A stretch of 64,000 nucleotides of DNA from NCBI GenBank assembly GCA_012798435.1, contig JAAZNF010000009.1, positions 1 through 64,000 on the forward strand, read 5' to 3'. The notes below the pieces were generated by a model. That model was not told the origin of the DNA. It saw only the letters and a program-made list of their open reading frames with translations, and ran no database searches. The first letter of the stretch is position 1. Each line of letters begins with the position of its first letter. This document shows, piece by piece, positions 15,713 through 51,906 of the stretch. Source of the stretch: Myxococcales bacterium. GTDB taxonomy: Bacteria; Myxococcota; B64-G9. Position numbers and translations under genes: made by a program.

Positions 15713-16360
15713 TTAGGGTTTGGGCTCGAGCAGCGACGCCAGGCGGCGCCGCTCTTCCTCCAGCATGTCGAGCAGCCGAGCCCACTGCACCGCGGTGGGG
15801 ACCTGGGCGCGCTTGCCTTGCAACGCCCCCAGCAGCGCCACGGTGTGCTCGACCTGACGGGACAGCGCCTCGGTCGCGCCGCTGGCCGGCTTGGGCGCGC
15901 CCGCGGGAGGTTGCGCCGGGAGCGTGCTCAGCCGCGAGCGCAGCAAGGAGGTTTCCTGGCGCAGCGAGGTGACCTCGAGGGCGGCCCGGATGCGTTCCAT
16001 CACCATGCCCATGTCGGAGAAAGGCTTGGTGAGATACGAAAACGCCCCCACCTCCATGGCCTTGATGGCCGAGTCCAGCGAGGCGTAGCCGGTGATCATG
16101 ATGAACTCGATCTCCGGGTGGCGCTTCTTCTGAGCGGAGATGAGGTCCACGCCCGACATGTCGGGCAGGTTCTTGTCCACCAACACCAGCGGCGGGTGGC
16201 GATCCTCCAGGATGGCGATGCCGCCCTGGGCGCAGTCGGCGAGCAGCGGGTGGTAGCCTTCCTCGGAGAGCAGCGAATCGAAGAGCAGCCGCACCACCTC
16301 CTCGTCGTCGATGACCAGGATCTGCTGGCGGTTGTTCTTGCTCGGAGTCGCCGGGTTCAT
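15713..16360 (-). CDS. Single-domain-type response regulator with coiled C-terminus, 215 aa
   Basis: The N-terminal receiver domain (about 13-130) has the acidic pair in ILVIDDEE, the phospho-acceptor Asp in [13 protein letters not shown], Thr/Ser in MITGYAS and the Lys in LTKPF. After it comes a helical stretch with hydrophobic heptads (about 130-150), a Pro/Ala-rich linker and a second helical segment ([17 protein letters not shown]). There is no DNA-binding or enzymatic output domain, so it probably works through protein contacts. ATG at 16360 is preceded by AAAGG and, further up, GGAGGA. It precedes glpK by 16 bases. The partner histidine kinase is not nearby. Confidence 0.85.
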
Positions 16361-16862
16361 GCGGACCGCGCCTTTCTTCCTCCATCGAGCAGCGGGATGG
16401 CAAGGAGATAAGAACACAAGGCCACCGGCGGATCAAGATCCCCGCCGAGCCGAGAGAGACATCATCGACCAGATTCGGGGAGTCAACGCGCTGTTGCACA
16501 TGAGCGCGCTCGAAGACGGGTCGCATGTCGTGGCCGCTCGAGATGGCCGCAAGGAACACTTGGCGAGTCTTGTCCAGAAGATGGAGTACAGTCGGGAAAT
16601 ACAATGTACGAATTAACTATACATGCGGGTTTTGAGTGGATATATAAGGCCATGGCCTGGACCGGGATACGATTCCGGCAAGGCTGGTGTATCACGGCGC
16701 CGGACAAAACCCTCGCTTTGGACATGGCAGTAACGAACCCCATGTGCTTCGCAACTCCCTGTAACAACAAGATATTTTCATCAGTGATCGAGCGTGGGTG
16801 TCCGTGGCATGGTTCGTGCTCATCACCTGAGCGGGAACTCGAATCTTGAAAGGAGCCGAGTC
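16361..16862. other. Divergent intergenic region of 502 bases
   Basis: This gap separates the minus-strand response regulator from the plus-strand receiver/hdr operon. It holds one AT-richer patch around 16597-16650 and a candidate sigma-54 promoter at 16805-16820. Short open frames in it (such as 16604-16849) lack ribosome sites and recognisable content. I see no RNA gene or repeat-family copy. Confidence 0.6.
16805..16820 (+). promoter_or_regulatory. Candidate sigma-54 (-24/-12) promoter upstream of the hdr operon
   Basis: TGGCATGGTTCGTGCT keeps the invariant GG (16806-16807) and GC (16818-16819) with the required 10-base spacing. It differs from TGGCAC-N5-TTGCW at two positions. It would start transcription near 16831, about 30 bases before the ATG at 16863. 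Two sigma-54 activators are encoded in this window. Confidence 0.4.
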
Positions 16863-18428
16863 ATGAGCGAGCAAAACCGGATTTTGGTGGTGGACGACGA
16901 AAAGATCGTTTGCGACTCTTGCAGCCGGATCTTCGAGCCGCAGGGGTTCAAGGTCGAGACCGTCACCGAGGCGGAGAAGGGGCTCCACATCGCCCAGAGC
17001 CAGGACTTCGCGGCCATCCTGCTGGACATCAAGATGCCCGGCATGGACGGCCTGGAGTTTCTGGAGAAGCTACGGGCCAAGAAGCCGAAGCAGCCGGTCA
17101 TCGTCATCACCGGCTATGCCAGCGTGGACAGCGCCGCGGCCGCCATGCGGCTCGGCGCCACGGACTACATCCCCAAGCCCTTCACCCCGGACGAGATCCT
17201 GCGGGCGGTGCGGAGGCTCTCGCACGCCACCGTGACCACCACCGCGCAAGCGGCGGCCCCTCGCGCCGCCTCGGGGTTCACCGCGGTCTCGGAGGAGGCG
17301 CGTTTTCTCGGCGAGAGCTGGATGCAGCCAGGCCAGGACGGCAGCGTCCGCGCCGGTGTCTTCCTGTCGCGGCAGGAAGCGGCGGCGGTGCGGGCGGTGG
17401 TTCTGCCCAGGCCTGGCCAGGTCGTCTATCGAGGCCTGCCGATGGCGCGCCTGGAGACGGCGGAGGGCGTGCGCCCCGTTCCTGCGCCGGTGAGCGGAGA
17501 GATCCTGGAATCCCACGCCGTGAGCGCGGGCAAGGATCTGGCCGACCCGCTGCGCGGCGGCTGGCTCGTCCGGCTGCGCCCGGCCCAGCTCGCCCAAGAC
17601 AACGAACGGCTCGCGGCCCGGAAGGTGGTGCTGGTATCTTCCGACGAGGCCCGCGCCCGCGAGCAGAAGAACAACCTCAACTACCTCGGCTGCGCGGTCG
17701 CGCTGGCTCGCAATGCCGAGGAGGCGCTGCGGCTGCTCGGCGAGGATCGCAAGGCGCTGCTGGTCATCGACGCGCCGTCGCTCGGCGCCGCCGGGCCGGA
17801 GCTGGTGCGCCGCGCCAACGCGCTCGCGCCCGAGGCCCGGGTGGTCGTCGCCGCCAGCGAGAAGAACGAGTTCGCCGCCGAGTACCGCACCGGCCGGGTG
17901 ATGTTCTACGGAGTGCAGCCCTTCGCCGACAACGAGATCCAGGACATCCTGGCCTCGGCCTTCACCGCGCCGCGCGAGGCCGTCACCGCGCGGCCGCCGG
18001 CCGTCGGCACGCCGCGCTTCGTGCGCCGGATCCGCATCACCAACCGCAAGGGGCAGAAGGTGGCGCTGCTCGCCTCCGGGGGCGTGCTGGAGGAGAGCCA
18101 GGGCGTGGGCCAGCGCCTCATCCAGGGAATCCTGGAGCGCAACTTCCCGGTACGGGTCACCCTGGGCAAGGAGGGCCTCACCCCGATGGAGGTGCGCGCC
18201 GACGCCGAGGACAACGACCGTCTGATCGTGCTCCTCTCCGAGCCGGGCGACCGGCTGCCGGGCAGCCTGGAGAAGAACGTTCCCAGCGAGCTGGTGGACG
18301 CGGCCGGCGAGGCCAAGTCCCGCGTGCTCTCGCTGCGGGTCCAGCCGGAGAGCGCGAGCGGCCTGCGCTTCGATCCGCGTACCGATCGCGCGCTGGCCGA
18401 GCTGATTCTGGACGAGATGACCGCCTGA
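16863..18428 (+). CDS. Receiver / GcvH-like / pseudo-receiver fusion protein, 521 aa
   Basis: An unusual fusion that leads the hdr operon. Residues 1-120 are a complete receiver domain (Asp11/Asp12, phospho-Asp55 in LLDIKMPGMDG, Lys105 in IPKPF). Residues about 148-242 follow the glycine-cleavage H protein pattern (ESWMQPGQDGSVRAG, AVVLPRPGQVVYRG, PAPVSGEI, GGWLVRLRP), but the lipoyl-lysine position is Glu201, so it should not be lipoylated. About 254-365 looks like a second, degenerate receiver (KVVLVSSDEAR, LLVIDAP). The last 130 residues are unassigned. ATG at 16863 has AGGAG seven bases upstream. It lies 19 bases before hdrC. A role in controlling or docking to the Hdr complex is inferred. 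Confidence 0.85.
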   Translation: MSEQNRILVVDDEKIVCDSCSRIFEPQGFKVETVTEAEKGLHIAQSQDFAAILLDIKMPGMDGLEFLEKLRAKKPKQPVIVITGYASVDSAAAAMRLGATDYIPKPFTPDEILRAVRRLSHATVTTTAQAAAPRAASGFTAVSEEARFLGESWMQPGQDGSVRAGVFLSRQEAAAVRAVVLPRPGQVVYRGLPMARLETAEGVRPVPAPVSGEILESHAVSAGKDLADPLRGGWLVRLRPAQLAQDNERLAARKVVLVSSDEARAREQKNNLNYLGCAVALARNAEEALRLLGEDRKALLVIDAPSLGAAGPELVRRANALAPEARVVVAASEKNEFAAEYRTGRVMFYGVQPFADNEIQDILASAFTAPREAVTARPPAVGTPRFVRRIRITNRKGQKVALLASGGVLEESQGVGQRLIQGILERNFPVRVTLGKEGLTPMEVRADAEDNDRLIVLLSEPGDRLPGSLEKNVPSELVDAAGEAKSRVLSLRVQPESASGLRFDPRTDRALAELILDEMTA

Positions 18429-18447: not shown

Positions 18448-19044
18448 ATGGAAAACCAAGAGACCATCCTGTTCGAGGGCGAGCTCGACCCCACCTTCTT
18501 CGACGAGGTGGCGGCGCTGCCCGAGGGCGCGCACCTGCGCTCGTGTATCCAGTGCGGCACCTGTGGTGGCACCTGCCCGGTGTCGCCCATGCTGCCCCAC
18601 ACGCCGCGAAAGCTGTTTGCCATGATCCGCGCCGGCATGAAGGACGCGGTGCTCTCGTCGCCCACCCCCTGGGTGTGCTCCTCCTGCTACGAGTGCACCG
18701 TAAAATGCCCGGCCGAGATCAAGATCACCGAGCTCATGTACGCCCTCAAGCGCCGGGCCATCCGCGAGGGCGTGCGCTGCGAGGACTCCGACGCCGATCG
18801 CTTCCTGCGCCAGTTCACCCGCATCGTGGCCAAGAACGGCCGCTCGCACGAGCTTTCGCTCCTCATGCGCTACATGATGTTCAAGCACCCCATCCAGATG
18901 CTCAAGCAGACCGGGCTCGGGCTGCGCATGATGGGCAAGGGGCGCATGCCGCTGTTCTCCCACAAGGTCCGGGACAAGGAGAGCTACTCCCGCATGGTGG
19001 AGAAGGCCCTCGAGCTCGGCGCCCAGGAAGGAGGCGTGCAATGA
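18448..19044 (+). CDS. hdrC: Heterodisulfide reductase subunit C-like iron-sulfur protein, 198 aa
   Basis: The electron-relay subunit between HdrA and HdrB. It binds two [4Fe-4S] clusters through CIQCGTCGGTCP (Cys33, 36, 39, 43) and CSSCYECTVKCP (Cys77, 80, 83, 87). After these comes the HdrC-type helical region (ALKRRAIREG, RQFTRIV). Length matches bacterial and archaeal HdrC (about 185-200). No membrane segment is present, so it belongs to the soluble HdrABC type rather than HdrDE. A GAGGAGG ribosome site precedes the ATG. Its stop overlaps the hdrB start (ATGA), which implies a fixed ratio of the two subunits. Confidence 0.92.
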   Translation: MENQETILFEGELDPTFFDEVAALPEGAHLRSCIQCGTCGGTCPVSPMLPHTPRKLFAMIRAGMKDAVLSSPTPWVCSSCYECTVKCPAEIKITELMYALKRRAIREGVRCEDSDADRFLRQFTRIVAKNGRSHELSLLMRYMMFKHPIQMLKQTGLGLRMMGKGRMPLFSHKVRDKESYSRMVEKALELGAQEGGVQ

Positions 19045-19928
19045 GATATCTCTACTACCCCGGCTGCTCGCAGCAGGCCACCGGCCGCACCTACGAGGAG
19101 TCGCTGCGCGCGGTGGCGCCGGAGCTCGGCATCGAGCTTTCCGAGATGGACGATTGGAACTGCTGCGGCACCACCACGGTGATGGCGGTGAACAAGGTGC
19201 TGGCGCTGTCTTTGGCCGGGCGCAACCTGGCGCTGGCCGAGCGCGCCGGCGCGAAGGAGCTCGTCACCGGATGCCCGAGCTGCGCGCTGTCGCTCAGCAA
19301 GGCCCACCAGGCGCTGACCGACGGGAGCGCGGTGGGCGCCAAGGTCAAGGAGGCGCTCGCCGCCGGCGGCTTCGAGTACAAGGGCACGGTCAAGGTCCGT
19401 CACCTGCTGGACGTCATCGTGAACCAGGTGGGCCTCGAGGCGCTCAAAGGAAAGGTTCGCGCCCCGCTCGCCGGCCTCAAGGTGGCACCGTACTACGGCT
19501 GCCAGGTGCTGCGGCCCTACCCGCAGGGCGACGACAGCGAGCGCCCGCAGAACTTGGAAAAACTCATCCAGGCCCTGGGCGGCGAGGTGGCCGACTTCGC
19601 CCTCAAGACGAGCTGCTGCGGCGGCACCCTGGTGGCCACCCGCGCCAAGGTGGGCAACAGCATGAGCTCGCAGGTGATCGCCAGCATCGAAAAATCCGGC
19701 GCCAAGGCCATCGTCACCCCGTGCAGCCTGTGCCAGACCACGCTGGAGGCGGTGCAGCGCCACAGCAAGAAGCTGCTCGGCCACAAGGTCCGCATCCCGG
19801 TGCTCACCATCACCCAGCTCATCGGACTGGCCCTGGGGCAGGACCGCAAGGCCCTGGCGCTACAGCGCTTGCTGGCTCCCAAGGCGTGCGTGAAGGAGCT
19901 GGAAATGCGTCCCGGGGCGGGAGCGTAA
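19041..19928 (+). CDS. hdrB: Heterodisulfide reductase subunit B-like protein with two CCG domains, 295 aa
   Basis: The likely catalytic disulfide-reducing subunit. Both CCG motifs are intact: Cys9, Cys41-Cys42 and Cys78/Cys81 in the first, Cys154, Cys192-Cys193 and Cys228/Cys231 in the second. In known HdrB these bind two noncubane [4Fe-4S] clusters that cleave a heterodisulfide. In bacteria without coenzyme M the disulfide partner is unknown. The ATG at 19041 overlaps the hdrC stop. An upstream extension of this frame to 18543 is only the shadow of hdrC. hdrA follows 12 bases later. Confidence 0.93.
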   Translation: MRYLYYPGCSQQATGRTYEESLRAVAPELGIELSEMDDWNCCGTTTVMAVNKVLALSLAGRNLALAERAGAKELVTGCPSCALSLSKAHQALTDGSAVGAKVKEALAAGGFEYKGTVKVRHLLDVIVNQVGLEALKGKVRAPLAGLKVAPYYGCQVLRPYPQGDDSERPQNLEKLIQALGGEVADFALKTSCCGGTLVATRAKVGNSMSSQVIASIEKSGAKAIVTPCSLCQTTLEAVQRHSKKLLGHKVRIPVLTITQLIGLALGQDRKALALQRLLAPKACVKELEMRPGAGA

Positions 19929-19940
19929 AGGAGAACGACC

Positions 19941-21911
19941 ATGGCGGATCCCCGAATCGGTGTGTACGTCTGTCACTGCGGCTCCAACATCGCCGGCAAG
20001 GTGGACGTGAAGAAGGTCGCCGAATACGCCGGCTCGCTTCCCGGCGTCAAGGTGGCCCGAGACTACGTGTTCATGTGCTCGGAGCCGGGCCAGGAGCTCA
20101 TCCGCAAGGACATCGCCGAGCACGAGCTCAACCGGGTGGTGGTGGCTTCCTGCTCGCCGCTCATGCACGAGCCCACCTTCCGCGCGGCCTGCGCTCGCGC
20201 CGGCCTCAACCCATACCTCATGCAGATGGCCAACATCCGCGAGCAGTGCTCGTGGGTGACCGAGGACACCGCCGCCGCCACCGAGAAGGCCAAGGCGCTG
20301 GTGGCCGGGGCGGTGGGCAAGGCGCGCTTCTTGCGGCCGCTCAACGAGTGCGAGGTGTCGGTGGCCCAGGCGGTGCTGGTGGTGGGTGGCGGCATCGCCG
20401 GCATCCAGGCGGCGCTGCAGTGCGCCGACGCCGGGTACAAGACCTACCTGGTGGAGCGCGAGCAGAGCATCGGCGGCCACATGGCCATGCTGGACAAGAC
20501 CTTCCCCACGCTGGATTGTTCGGCCTGCATCCTCACGCCCAAGATGGTCTCGGTGGGCCAGCACCCCAACATCGAGCTCATGACCTCCTCCGAGGTGGTG
20601 GACGTGGGCGGCTACGTCGGCAACCTCAAGGTCAAGGTGCGCCGCTTCGCGACCTACGTCGACTACGACAAGTGCAACGGCTGCGGCCTGTGTCAGGAAA
20701 AGTGCCCCATGAAGGTGCCCAACCCCTTCGAGCAGGGGCGCACCAAGCGCAAGGCCATCTACACCATGTTCCCCCAGGCGGTGCCGAACAAGCCGGTCAT
20801 CGACCACGACAATTGCACCTTCTTCAAGAAGGGCACCTGTAAGGTGTGCGCCAAGTTCTGCAAGATGAACGCCATCGACTTCGAGCAGAAGGAGCGCATC
20901 GAGGAGCTCGAGGTGGGCGCCATCATCCTGGCCACCGGGCATAAGGTGTTCGACGCCACCGCCATGGCGCGCTATGGCTACGGGCGCCTCAAGAACGTCT
21001 ACTCGGCCCTCGAGTTCGAGCGCATGGTGAACTCCGGCGGCTTCTCCAAGGGCGAGATCGTCACCGAGGAGGGCAAGCACCCCAAGGCGGTCGGCATCAT
21101 CCACTGCGTCGGCAGCCGCGACCGGCACCACCTGCCTTACTGCTCCAGCATCTGCTGCATGTACAGCCTCAAGTTCGCCCACCTCATCAAGGAGCACTCC
21201 GACGCCGAGGTGTACGACTTCTACATCGACATGCGCTGCGTGGGGAAGGGCTACGAGGAGTTCTACGACCGGCTGCTCAACGAGGGTGTGCGCTTCGTGC
21301 GCGGCAAGGTGGCCTCCATCACCGACGAGGCGCGTCATCCCTCCGAGGAGGGCCGGCTGGTGGTGCAGGTCGAGGACACCCTGGCGGGCGTGGTGCGGCG
21401 CATCCCGCTCGACATGGTGATCCTGGCCAACGGGCTCGAGTCCCGGGCAGACTCGGACGCGGTGGGGCGGCTGTTCGGGGTGTCGCGCAACAAGGACGGG
21501 TTCTTCATCGAGCAGCACCCCAAGCTCGCGCCGGTGTCCACCCCCAACAAGGCGGTGTTCATCGCCGGCACCTGCGCCGGGCCCAAGGACATCCCTCACA
21601 CCGTGGCCCAGGCCTCGGCGGCCGCGGCCGGCGCGCTCACCATACTGCGTCAGGGCAAGGTGCTCCTCGAGTCCATCGCCGCCAGGGTCCGGCCCGAGAT
21701 GTGCTCGGGCTGCCGCACCTGCGTCGATCTGTGCGCCTACAAGGCCATCTCCTTCGACGAGAGCACCAAGCTGGCCACGGTGGACGAGACCATGTGCCGT
21801 GGCTGCGGCACCTGCGTGGCGGCCTGTCCGTCCGGCGCCATCGAAGGACGGCACTTCGACGACCGCCAGATCGACTCCGAGATCGAGGGCCTGCTCTCCG
21901 ACGCGCGCTAG
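19941..21911 (+). CDS. hdrA: Heterodisulfide reductase subunit A-like flavoprotein, 656 aa
   Basis: A FAD-containing hub for electron transfer, possibly by flavin-based bifurcation. The N-terminus has VYVCHCGSNIAG, typical of HdrA. The FAD site is VVGGGIAG (147-154) followed by the HdrA-specific LDCSACILTPKM (Cys193, Cys196). Cys245/248/251/255 and Cys292/300/303/307 form the two central cluster sites. Near the C-terminus are two ferredoxin motifs, CSGCRTCVDLC and CRGCGTCVAACP. No selenocysteine codon is seen. Length is normal (about 650). GGAG precedes the ATG. No MvhD, hydrogenase or FlxABCD gene is in the window, so the electron donor is not visible. Confidence 0.94.
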   Translation: MADPRIGVYVCHCGSNIAGKVDVKKVAEYAGSLPGVKVARDYVFMCSEPGQELIRKDIAEHELNRVVVASCSPLMHEPTFRAACARAGLNPYLMQMANIREQCSWVTEDTAAATEKAKALVAGAVGKARFLRPLNECEVSVAQAVLVVGGGIAGIQAALQCADAGYKTYLVEREQSIGGHMAMLDKTFPTLDCSACILTPKMVSVGQHPNIELMTSSEVVDVGGYVGNLKVKVRRFATYVDYDKCNGCGLCQEKCPMKVPNPFEQGRTKRKAIYTMFPQAVPNKPVIDHDNCTFFKKGTCKVCAKFCKMNAIDFEQKERIEELEVGAIILATGHKVFDATAMARYGYGRLKNVYSALEFERMVNSGGFSKGEIVTEEGKHPKAVGIIHCVGSRDRHHLPYCSSICCMYSLKFAHLIKEHSDAEVYDFYIDMRCVGKGYEEFYDRLLNEGVRFVRGKVASITDEARHPSEEGRLVVQVEDTLAGVVRRIPLDMVILANGLESRADSDAVGRLFGVSRNKDGFFIEQHPKLAPVSTPNKAVFIAGTCAGPKDIPHTVAQASAAAAGALTILRQGKVLLESIAARVRPEMCSGCRTCVDLCAYKAISFDESTKLATVDETMCRGCGTCVAACPSGAIEGRHFDDRQIDSEIEGLLSDAR

Positions 21912-38218: not shown

Positions 38219-39610
38219 TCAAGGCTCGCCGGGATCGTCCTGGCGTCGGATGTCGAGCTGCTTCATCTTCTTGTGAAGGTTGGTGCGTTCGATCCCCAGG
38301 GCCTGGGCGGCCTTGGTGACGTTCCAGCCGTACTCCTCGAGCGTGCGACGGATGTAGTCGCGCTCGACCTCCTCGCGCAGGTCTTTGAGGGACATCCCGG
38401 AGGCGGCCTTGCCGGTCGCCGGGGCGGGTGCGGCGGCGCCCTGGTCGAAATACTCGGGCACGTCGGACTCCTGGATGCGGTCGCCGCTCATGATGACCAG
38501 CCGCTCGGCCAGGTTCTTGAGCTCGCGGATGTTCCCCGGCCAGCTATAGCGCCGCAGCCGTACCATGACCGACGGCTCGATCTCTTTCTCTTTGAACCCG
38601 TTCTCCTTGCAGAAATCCCTGACGAACTTGGAGAGCAACAGCGGGATGTCGTCGAGCCGCTCTCGCAGCGGGGCGCAGTGGATGGGGATGACGTTGAGGC
38701 GGAAGTACAGATCCTCGCGGAAGTTCCCCTCGGCCACCGCCTTGCGCAGGTCGCGATTGGTGGCGGCGAGCACCCGCACGTCCACCTTGAGGGTCTGCTC
38801 GCCGCCCACGTGGCTGAGTTCGCCCGTTTGTAGCACCCGCAGCACCTTGGCCTGGGCGTTCTGGCTCATGTCGCCGATCTCGTCGAGGAACAGGGTCCCC
38901 TCGTGGGCCAGCTCGAACTGCCCCTTCTTGCGGGCGGCGGCGCCGGTGAAGGCCCCCTTCTCGTAGCCGAACAGTTCGCTCTCGATGAGCTCGGCCGGGA
39001 TGGCAGCGCAGTTGACCTTGACGAAGGGCCCCTGGGCGCGCTTGGAGAGGCGGTGGATGGCCCGGGCCACCAGCTCCTTGCCCGTGCCGCTCTCCCCGGT
39101 GATGAGCACCCGGCCGTTGGTGGGGGCCACCTTGCGGATCTCCTCCAGCATGTGCTGCACCGCATCGCTCTGGCCGATGATCTCGATCTCCTTGGCCACC
39201 TCCGAGAGCAGCGTGCGCACCTTGTGGGTCAGGGCCACCTTCTCCAGGCAGTTGGAAACCGACAGCACCACCCGCTCGCGGTCGAGGGGCTTCTCCAGAA
39301 AGTCGTAGGCCCCGAGCTGGGTGGCGCGTACCGCCTCGCCGATGGTGGCGTGCCCGGAGATCATGATGACCTCGGTCCCGGGGTGCTCCTTGCGGATCTT
39401 CTCGAGCAGCTGCACGCCGTCCATGCCGGGAAGCTTGATGTCGAGCAGCACCAGGTCGGCCCGCCGCTCACTCAGCAGGCGTTGTGCTTCCTCGGCGGAG
39501 CCGCAGTCGCGCACCGTGAGCTTGTCCGACTCCAGGATCATACGCAGGGTGCGGCGGATGTTCTTCTCGTCGTCGACGATCAAAAGGTCGGCCTCGGGGG
39601 CGTCGCTCAT
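38219..39610 (-). CDS. NtrC-family sigma-54 response regulator, NtrX-like, 463 aa
   Basis: Activates sigma-54 promoters. Domain order: receiver (about 8-120, LLIVDDE, phospho-Asp in LVLLDIKLPGMDG, Lys in FLEKPL), AAA+ domain (about 140-375) with Walker A GESGTGKE, the sigma-54 contact loop GAFTGA, Walker B LFLDEIGD and RLNVIPIHCAPLRER, then a Fis-type helix-turn-helix (about 415-460, NVTKAAQALGIERTNLHKKM). ATG follows GAGGAGG that overlaps the histidine kinase stop. Together with the NtrY-like kinase it forms a typical two-component pair; in other proteobacteria NtrYX controls envelope, nitrogen or redox genes. Confidence 0.92.
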   Translation of the reverse strand: MSDAPEADLLIVDDEKNIRRTLRMILESDKLTVRDCGSAEEAQRLLSERRADLVLLDIKLPGMDGVQLLEKIRKEHPGTEVIMISGHATIGEAVRATQLGAYDFLEKPLDRERVVLSVSNCLEKVALTHKVRTLLSEVAKEIEIIGQSDAVQHMLEEIRKVAPTNGRVLITGESGTGKELVARAIHRLSKRAQGPFVKVNCAAIPAELIESELFGYEKGAFTGAAARKKGQFELAHEGTLFLDEIGDMSQNAQAKVLRVLQTGELSHVGGEQTLKVDVRVLAATNRDLRKAVAEGNFREDLYFRLNVIPIHCAPLRERLDDIPLLLSKFVRDFCKENGFKEKEIEPSVMVRLRRYSWPGNIRELKNLAERLVIMSGDRIQESDVPEYFDQGAAAPAPATGKAASGMSLKDLREEVERDYIRRTLEEYGWNVTKAAQALGIERTNLHKKMKQLDIRRQDDPGEP

Positions 39611-39623
39611 GACTCGATCCTCC

Positions 39624-41102
39624 TCAGGCGTTCGCGGGCGGGGTGGAGCCCGCGCGCAGGCGCACGCAGAATACCGTGCCGCGGGGCGGGTTGTCGCGCG
39701 CGAAGATCTCTCCGCCGTGTTGCAACACGATCTTCTTGACGATGGCCAGGCCCAGGCCGGTGCCGTGGGCCTTGGTGGTGAAATACGGCTGGAACAGCCG
39801 GCCGCGGGCCTCCTCGCTCAAGCCTACGCCGCGGTCGGCCACCTGCAGCACGCCGAACTCGCCCTCGCGACCCACGCGGATCTCCACCGGCTCGCCGCCG
39901 GGGCTGGCGTCCAGCGCGTTGTTGACGAGGTTCATCAGCACCCGGCCCATGAGCATGGGGTCCAGCCGGATCTCCAGGCGCTCCCGGAGCGGCTGCAGCG
40001 AGACGCGGGAGGCGAACTGGGGGTTCTTGCGCAAAAAGTCGGCGGCGAACTCGTTGAGCTCGACCGGGATGGTCTGCACGTCAGGCAGTTTCGCGAACTC
40101 CGAGAAGGTCTCCACCATGCGGCGCAGGGTGGCCACCTCCTCCTCCACGATCTCCAGCGACTGGTCGAGCTTGGCGGTGAAGGAGCTGTCCTCGCCGCGG
40201 TAGCTCTTGTGCAGCTCCTGCATGGCCAGCTGGATGGGGGTGAGCGGGTTTTTGATCTCGTGGGCCAGGCGGCGGGCGATCTCTTGCCACGAGGAGACCT
40301 TCTCCAGGTACACGATGCGGTCGCGGGTGCGCTGGATCTCGTCGAGCATGCGGTTGAAGGACTCGGCCAGGGAGCCGATCTCGTCCCGTCCCCGCACCGG
40401 CACGCGCACCGCCAGGTCGCCGGTGGTCGCCCGGCGCGTGGCGGACACGAGCTGGGCCACTCGCCGGGTCACGCTGCGCGCGAGCAGGTAGCCCAGCACC
40501 ACCGCCATGAGCAGGATCCAGAAGTAGATGAACAAAAACACCCGGTAGTAGGCCAGTTTCCAGGGTTGGAAGTTGGTCTGGAAGCTCTCCAGCGTGACCA
40601 CCAGCTCGCGCAGGCTGTCGGCGCCTTCCAGAAAGGAGCGAGCGATCACCAGCACCGCCTCGATGCGCTCTCCGCCCGGGAGATCGAAGACATCGCTGCG
40701 CGACTTCACCCCGGCGGGGTCGGGCGGCGGCTTTCGCTCCTCCTCCACGAGCACGCTGTCTTTTCGCAGCAGGCGCACCCGCTGGATGGCCGGCGTCTGC
40801 AAGAGCTCCCGCAGCGGCTCCCGCACCTCGTCGAAGGCGCCCTTCTGCACGGCCTTGAGGAAGGCCTCGTCGTCGGCCAGCGCCAGGATCTGGGTGCGGG
40901 CCAGGCGGAGGCGGGTCTCGATGACCTCCTTGTAGAGATCGACGCTCTGGCGTAAAGCGTCCAGCACCCGGTCGTTGACGCCCACCGACATGCTCTCGCC
41001 CACCAGCCGGTCCACCATGATGGCGGTGAAGAGCAGCGGCGCCGCGGCGGTGAGCAGCAGGGCCAGGACGATCTTCCACTCGAACTTGCCGATGCGTCGC
41101 AT
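39624..41102 (-). CDS. Membrane sensor histidine kinase, NtrY-like, 492 aa
   Basis: Autophosphorylates on His and passes the phosphate to the NtrX-like regulator encoded 13 bases downstream. Topology: membrane helix at about 10-32, a periplasmic sensor region (about 33-185), a second helix (about 188-212, VFLFIYFWILLMAVVLGYLLA), HAMP (about 213-265), HisKA with LAHEIKNPLTP, and HATPase with NLVNNALDAS, VADRGVGLS and GTGLGLAIVKKI. The short periplasmic domain distinguishes it from the four-helix NtrY of alphaproteobacteria. The ATG follows the DUF4390 stop by six bases. Confidence 0.92.
   Translation of the reverse strand: MRRIGKFEWKIVLALLLTAAAPLLFTAIMVDRLVGESMSVGVNDRVLDALRQSVDLYKEVIETRLRLARTQILALADDEAFLKAVQKGAFDEVREPLRELLQTPAIQRVRLLRKDSVLVEEERKPPPDPAGVKSRSDVFDLPGGERIEAVLVIARSFLEGADSLRELVVTLESFQTNFQPWKLAYYRVFLFIYFWILLMAVVLGYLLARSVTRRVAQLVSATRRATTGDLAVRVPVRGRDEIGSLAESFNRMLDEIQRTRDRIVYLEKVSSWQEIARRLAHEIKNPLTPIQLAMQELHKSYRGEDSSFTAKLDQSLEIVEEEVATLRRMVETFSEFAKLPDVQTIPVELNEFAADFLRKNPQFASRVSLQPLRERLEIRLDPMLMGRVLMNLVNNALDASPGGEPVEIRVGREGEFGVLQVADRGVGLSEEARGRLFQPYFTTKAHGTGLGLAIVKKIVLQHGGEIFARDNPPRGTVFCVRLRAGSTPPANA

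Positions 41103-50400: not shown

Positions 50401-51906
<1,506 letters not shown>

Follow-up and report, generated by a model that had tools for sequence, protein, structure and literature searches.

A response regulator fused to an H-protein-like domain without a lipoyl lysine heads an hdrCBA operon with a predicted sigma-54 promoter

Domains of the GcvH-type family elsewhere present lipoyl arms to redox enzymes. The sHdr sulfur-oxidation system includes LbpA, a lipoate-binding GcvH-like protein whose lysine is kept in all 95 aligned proteins (PMC6067878). On the regulatory side, control of hdr transcription by two-component systems has a known precedent: DVU2394 is reported to regulate the adh-hdr operon of Desulfovibrio vulgaris at the transcriptional level (PMC3333781). 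Here we describe a gene within a window of 64,000 nucleotides, the whole stretch of DNA that was analyzed, whose product combines receivers with an H-protein-like domain and probably links two-component signalling to the HdrCBA redox complex. The features of the locus are as follows.

16585-16609, minus strand: another copy of the upstream element, overlapping the first, with one mismatch
16599-16623, plus strand: conserved 25-bp upstream element RTACNNTGT-N11-RTACA, a proposed NtrC-type activator site
16805-16820, plus strand: sigma-54-type promoter TGGCATGGTTCGTGCT (GG-N10-GC)
16863-18428, plus strand: fusion protein of 521 aa (receiver, lysine-free H-like domain, degenerate receiver, C-terminal domain)
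16881-17213, plus strand: intact receiver; D11, D12, D55, T83 and K105 invariant in six homologues
17316-17621, plus strand: GCV_H-like domain
17463-17465, plus strand: Glu201 codon, in the lipoyl-lysine column, where none of six homologues has Lys
17619-17972, plus strand: degenerate second receiver
18015-18425, plus strand: conserved C-terminal domain
18448-19044, plus strand: hdrC-like gene, two CxxCxxCxxxC motifs
19041-19928, plus strand: hdrB-like gene, two CCG domains
19941-21911, plus strand: hdrA-like gene, FAD motif, three CxxCxxCxxxC motifs, no MvhD domain

The open reading frame at 16863-18428 is real and open, and its ATG at 16863, which is preceded by the ribosome-binding-like sequence AAAGGAG, is the preferred start because a longer version beginning at GTG 16794 would overrun the sigma-54 site. 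The complete receiver and the degenerate second receiver described by the first-pass annotation were both recovered. The first of these (residues 7-117) was recognized by Pfam with E 8.9e-37 and possesses the full set of response regulator residues, namely the acidic pair, the phospho-Asp, the Thr/Ser and the Lys. The second matched its Pfam model below the cut-off (E 5.5e-4) and by profile the receiver 3hv2 (E 8.9e-5), and its phosphorylation site is incomplete, with D303 kept, the Lys replaced and the acidic pair partial. A fourth domain that was absent from the earlier description (residues ~385-521) is conserved across the fusion family and matched no Pfam model. The segment comprising the degenerate receiver and the C-terminal part reached a mean pLDDT of 46 in a single-sequence AlphaFold prediction. 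Over their non-receiver part the fusion homologues, which come from six species, are 37-48% identical.

The H-protein-like domain, and the placement of Glu201 where the lipoyl lysine would be, likewise held up in the Pfam search, the structural profile comparison and the alignment. Residues 152-252 matched GCV_H with E 1.2e-8 and a score of 35.4 bits, the cut-off being 22.2, and all five other homologues also exceeded this cut-off (E 1.3e-9 to 1.2e-13). A profile of the six fusion sequences matched many solved H-proteins, with GcvH 1onl as the best (E 4.6e-14). Single-sequence AlphaFold modelling of the H-like segment gave a mean pLDDT of 43, and Foldseek returned nothing below E 0.07, with no H-protein on top; this model, like that of the C-terminal segment, was of too poor quality to count for or against the fold. 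Because of the profile homology to solved GcvH proteins, the domain very likely adopts the H fold.

In the alignment the lipoyl column of the six homologues reads Glu, Glu, Gly, Asp, Gly and Gly, with the precise assignment for the final four hinging on a one-residue gap, and the fusion of genome G003 has a Lys one column off this position. Covalent lipoylation of the domain was considered and rejected, the site having no lysine; a separate canonical GcvH is encoded in the window's own genome. The earlier statement that the lipoyl lysine had been lost is correct as far as its absence from all six homologues is concerned, but this absence is common to a wider group of lysine-free H-like proteins. 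With hhalign, the fusion domains come out nearer to these other proteins of the phylum (E 7e-22) than to its 29 canonical GcvH sequences (profile-profile E 7e-15), and in a tree of 27 domains, unrooted and with long branches, GcvH formed one group (support 100/99) and the fusions another (100/100), with the lysine-free proteins in between. This tree is compatible with, but does not prove, descent of the fusion from a lysine-free ancestor. Judged from these comparisons, the word "lost" applies to the lineage and there is no private loss in the fusion protein itself. Adjacent pairs of GCV_H proteins that lack the lysine and carry a hydrophobic segment N-terminally were also noted at L046:6177-7905 and L048:272-1799, and several genomes belonging to family f13 have 6-8 GCV_H matches.

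As the first-pass annotation had proposed, the fusion leads an hdrCBA operon: its stop codon is followed after 19 nt by hdrC, which overlaps hdrB by 4 nt, and hdrA begins 12 nt after hdrB. HdrC, HdrB and HdrA all carry their Fe-S and FAD motifs. By Pfam, MvhD is neither encoded in this operon nor fused to its HdrA, and the single mvhD match of the genome is found on contig C49 at another locus that has its own HdrA. That second Hdr-type cluster (L164, 8771-12458, minus strand) encodes a Fer4+CCG protein, a second HdrA and MvhD. At two further loci (L093:4333-6300 and L096:2508-4589) the HdrA frame is split near residue 195-202, possibly by a selenocysteine TGA, and one TGA was also seen inside several MvhD frames.

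The fusion architecture was present in six of the 195 genomes of the phylum, five of them in the window's family, the remaining one being G017. The hdrC-hdrB-hdrA genes followed directly downstream on the same strand in five of the six, so that the expected recurrence of the same domain order beside hdr was found in four of the five other genomes. Only G003 departed from this arrangement: there the kinase-NtrC-fusion trio is kept without hdrCBA, the fusion is followed by a porin-like gene and a Sulf_transp gene, and the HdrB proteins of the genome are merely 32-37% identical. Because of G003, the two-component pair is, judging from gene neighbourhoods, at least as constant a partner of the fusion as Hdr. 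A reverse test starting from HdrB identified as the four nearest relatives (56-63% identity) exactly the fusion-bearing ones, and the next two (46% and 43%) had no fusion upstream. In the first of the latter (G041, 46%) the HdrCBA operon continues into what read as mvhD and hydrogenase subunit genes. A contig search with peptides from one fusion sequence returned a receiver match only, and a plasmid search for the fusion returned no match.

With regard to the control region, the promoter is the sole exact match to TGGCAYGN5TGCW in the 64 kb (0.12 expected), and a GG-N10-GC site of the sigma-54 type lies upstream of all six fusion genes. The upstream element was found with identical internal spacing at all six, ~200 bp upstream of the sigma-54 site (133 in G003), its pattern having been derived from these sites so that its occurrence there is by construction. 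The six upstream regions that have it in common are divergent, it almost never turns up in resampled sequences of matching composition, and no further exact match exists in the window's own genome. Neither the sigma-54 site nor the element was present in the 400 nt examined upstream of any of the seven fusion-less hdr operons. Other exact matches to the element, in G039, G031, G035 and G020, fall inside genes or at gene edges, with no recognizable sigma-54 partner, and were treated as chance. With the -24/-12 promoter and upstream activator site consensus matched in six of six cases, the operon is predicted to be under sigma-54/NtrC control. The intergenic region holding the element is shared with a divergently oriented gene for a single-receiver protein of 234 aa (15713-16417, minus strand).

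Directly upstream of the fusion, an NtrC-type gene was observed in G039, G013 and G003 as well as, at a contig end, in G017, and in G039 and G003 this gene is itself preceded by one encoding an sCache histidine kinase (sCache-HAMP-HisKA). In the window's own genome the orthologous kinase and NtrC (57% and 69% identity) are encoded away from the fusion on contig C36, and the NtrC ortholog has a Sigma54_activat domain with GSFTGA and a similar HTH. The kinase gene was unlinked in G000, G031 and G017. Relatives of the kinase were detected in all six fusion genomes, the best match in G013 being just 35% identical, as well as in G020, which has no fusion. Within the window itself, tblastn matches to the kinase/NtrC queries at 38258-40568 and 50533-51519 (both minus strand, 28-43% identity) indicate additional two-component/NtrC genes.

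Taken together, these observations suggest a model in which the sensor kinase and the NtrC-type activator would activate the operon via the upstream element, to which NtrC is predicted to bind, and the sigma-54 promoter, so that the fusion would be made together with HdrC, HdrB and HdrA. The fusion would then act as a second, non-DNA-binding response regulator, its intact receiver taking phosphate probably from the same kinase, which would thereby phosphorylate both regulators. Phosphorylation may expose or hide the H-like domain, which without lipoate would be unable to carry substrate and could instead dock the fusion onto a redox partner, HdrCBA being the simplest candidate, and such docking might adjust the activity of HdrCBA or its choice of electron partner. 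We put the probability of this reading, activation by NtrC combined with docking of the H-like domain, at roughly 0.4. In its favour are the conserved architecture with invariant key receiver residues, the adjoining hdrCBA in five of six genomes, the closest hdrB orthologues tracking the fusion, the two promoter sites being confined to the fusion genes in the comparison with fusion-less operons, the kinase/NtrC pair, and the lack of MvhD in this HdrA; against it stand G003, which has no adjoining hdrCBA, the three genomes with an unlinked kinase, and the low identity of the best kinase match in G013. The more specific proposal that a phosphorylation-gated, lipoate-free H-domain serves as an adaptor subunit of an MvhD-less HdrCBA, with the two-component system setting electron flow post-translationally, is bolder and we regard it as rather unlikely.

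The strongest case against a strict Hdr subunit is G003, on account of which a different reading stays alive: the fusion may feed back on its own two-component pair, acting as a phosphate sink or redox co-sensor and so modulating either the kinase or NtrC. In this view the H-like domain would register the state of a redox partner, and HdrCBA would be no more than a regulated target. Besides the trio of G003, the fact that in four genomes NtrC is the gene immediately preceding the fusion, and the 44-49% identity of the fusion receiver to the neighbouring NtrC receivers, speak for such feedback. We consider it a serious contender although somewhat unlikely, given that five of the six fusion genes form an operon with hdrCBA and that the nearest hdrB orthologues track the presence of the fusion.

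Docking could also be directed at another electron-transfer enzyme, for instance a hydrogenase, or at a lipoyl-binding partner enzyme, with the Hdr neighbourhood reflecting only shared physiology. Lysine-free H-like proteins of G003 and G020 adjoin genes with an iron-hydrogenase C-terminal domain, and the kinase relative of G020 adjoins the same cluster; none of the five hdr-linked loci, however, showed a hydrogenase gene next to the fusion, two of these loci being on short contigs, and this possibility appears decidedly improbable. The proteins concerned (L044:17422-19236 in G003 and L050:6397-8211 in G020) are 605 aa long and combine an N-terminal part that contains cysteines with a lysine-free GCV_H domain at the C-terminal side, and genes with HATPase domains lie near them in addition to the iron-hydrogenase ones. 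That the H-like domain is a mere structural spacer or scaffold between the receivers, with no docking role, would fit its divergence and its unconserved lipoyl position, but we find this hard to credit in view of a core (W153, D159, G160, G165, G191-P193, P209, G212 and G233-W234) that is invariant across proteins 37-48% identical, a conservation that the fold alone could also explain.

A fusion of receiver and H-like domain was not found in the literature searched, which is weak evidence as most subscription papers lie outside its coverage. New at this locus is the combination of a sigma-54-type promoter with an identically spaced upstream element at all six fusion genes. A response regulator co-encoded with the enzyme is a tangible candidate for controlling flavin-based electron transfer post-translationally, and lipoate-free H-like domains are suggested as a docking module in their own right. 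Compared with GcvH (PF01597), the fusion belongs to the same domain family by profile but differs in having no lipoyl lysine. LbpA resembles it in being a GcvH-like protein encoded with Hdr-like proteins, but LbpA stands alone and its lipoyl lysine is strictly conserved (PMC6067878), whereas the domain of the fusion is lysine-free and placed between two receivers. DVU2394 parallels the NtrC/fusion system as a response regulator tied to an operon with heterodisulfide reductase genes, although the accessible part of that report describes no receiver-H fusion such as the one at the hdrCBA locus (PMC3333781). Finally, HdrC, HdrB and HdrA with their cofactor motifs are common to the present operon and to HdrABC-MvhADG of methanogens and bacteria, whereas the operon described here is without mvhD and hydrogenase genes and carries the receiver-H fusion at its head.
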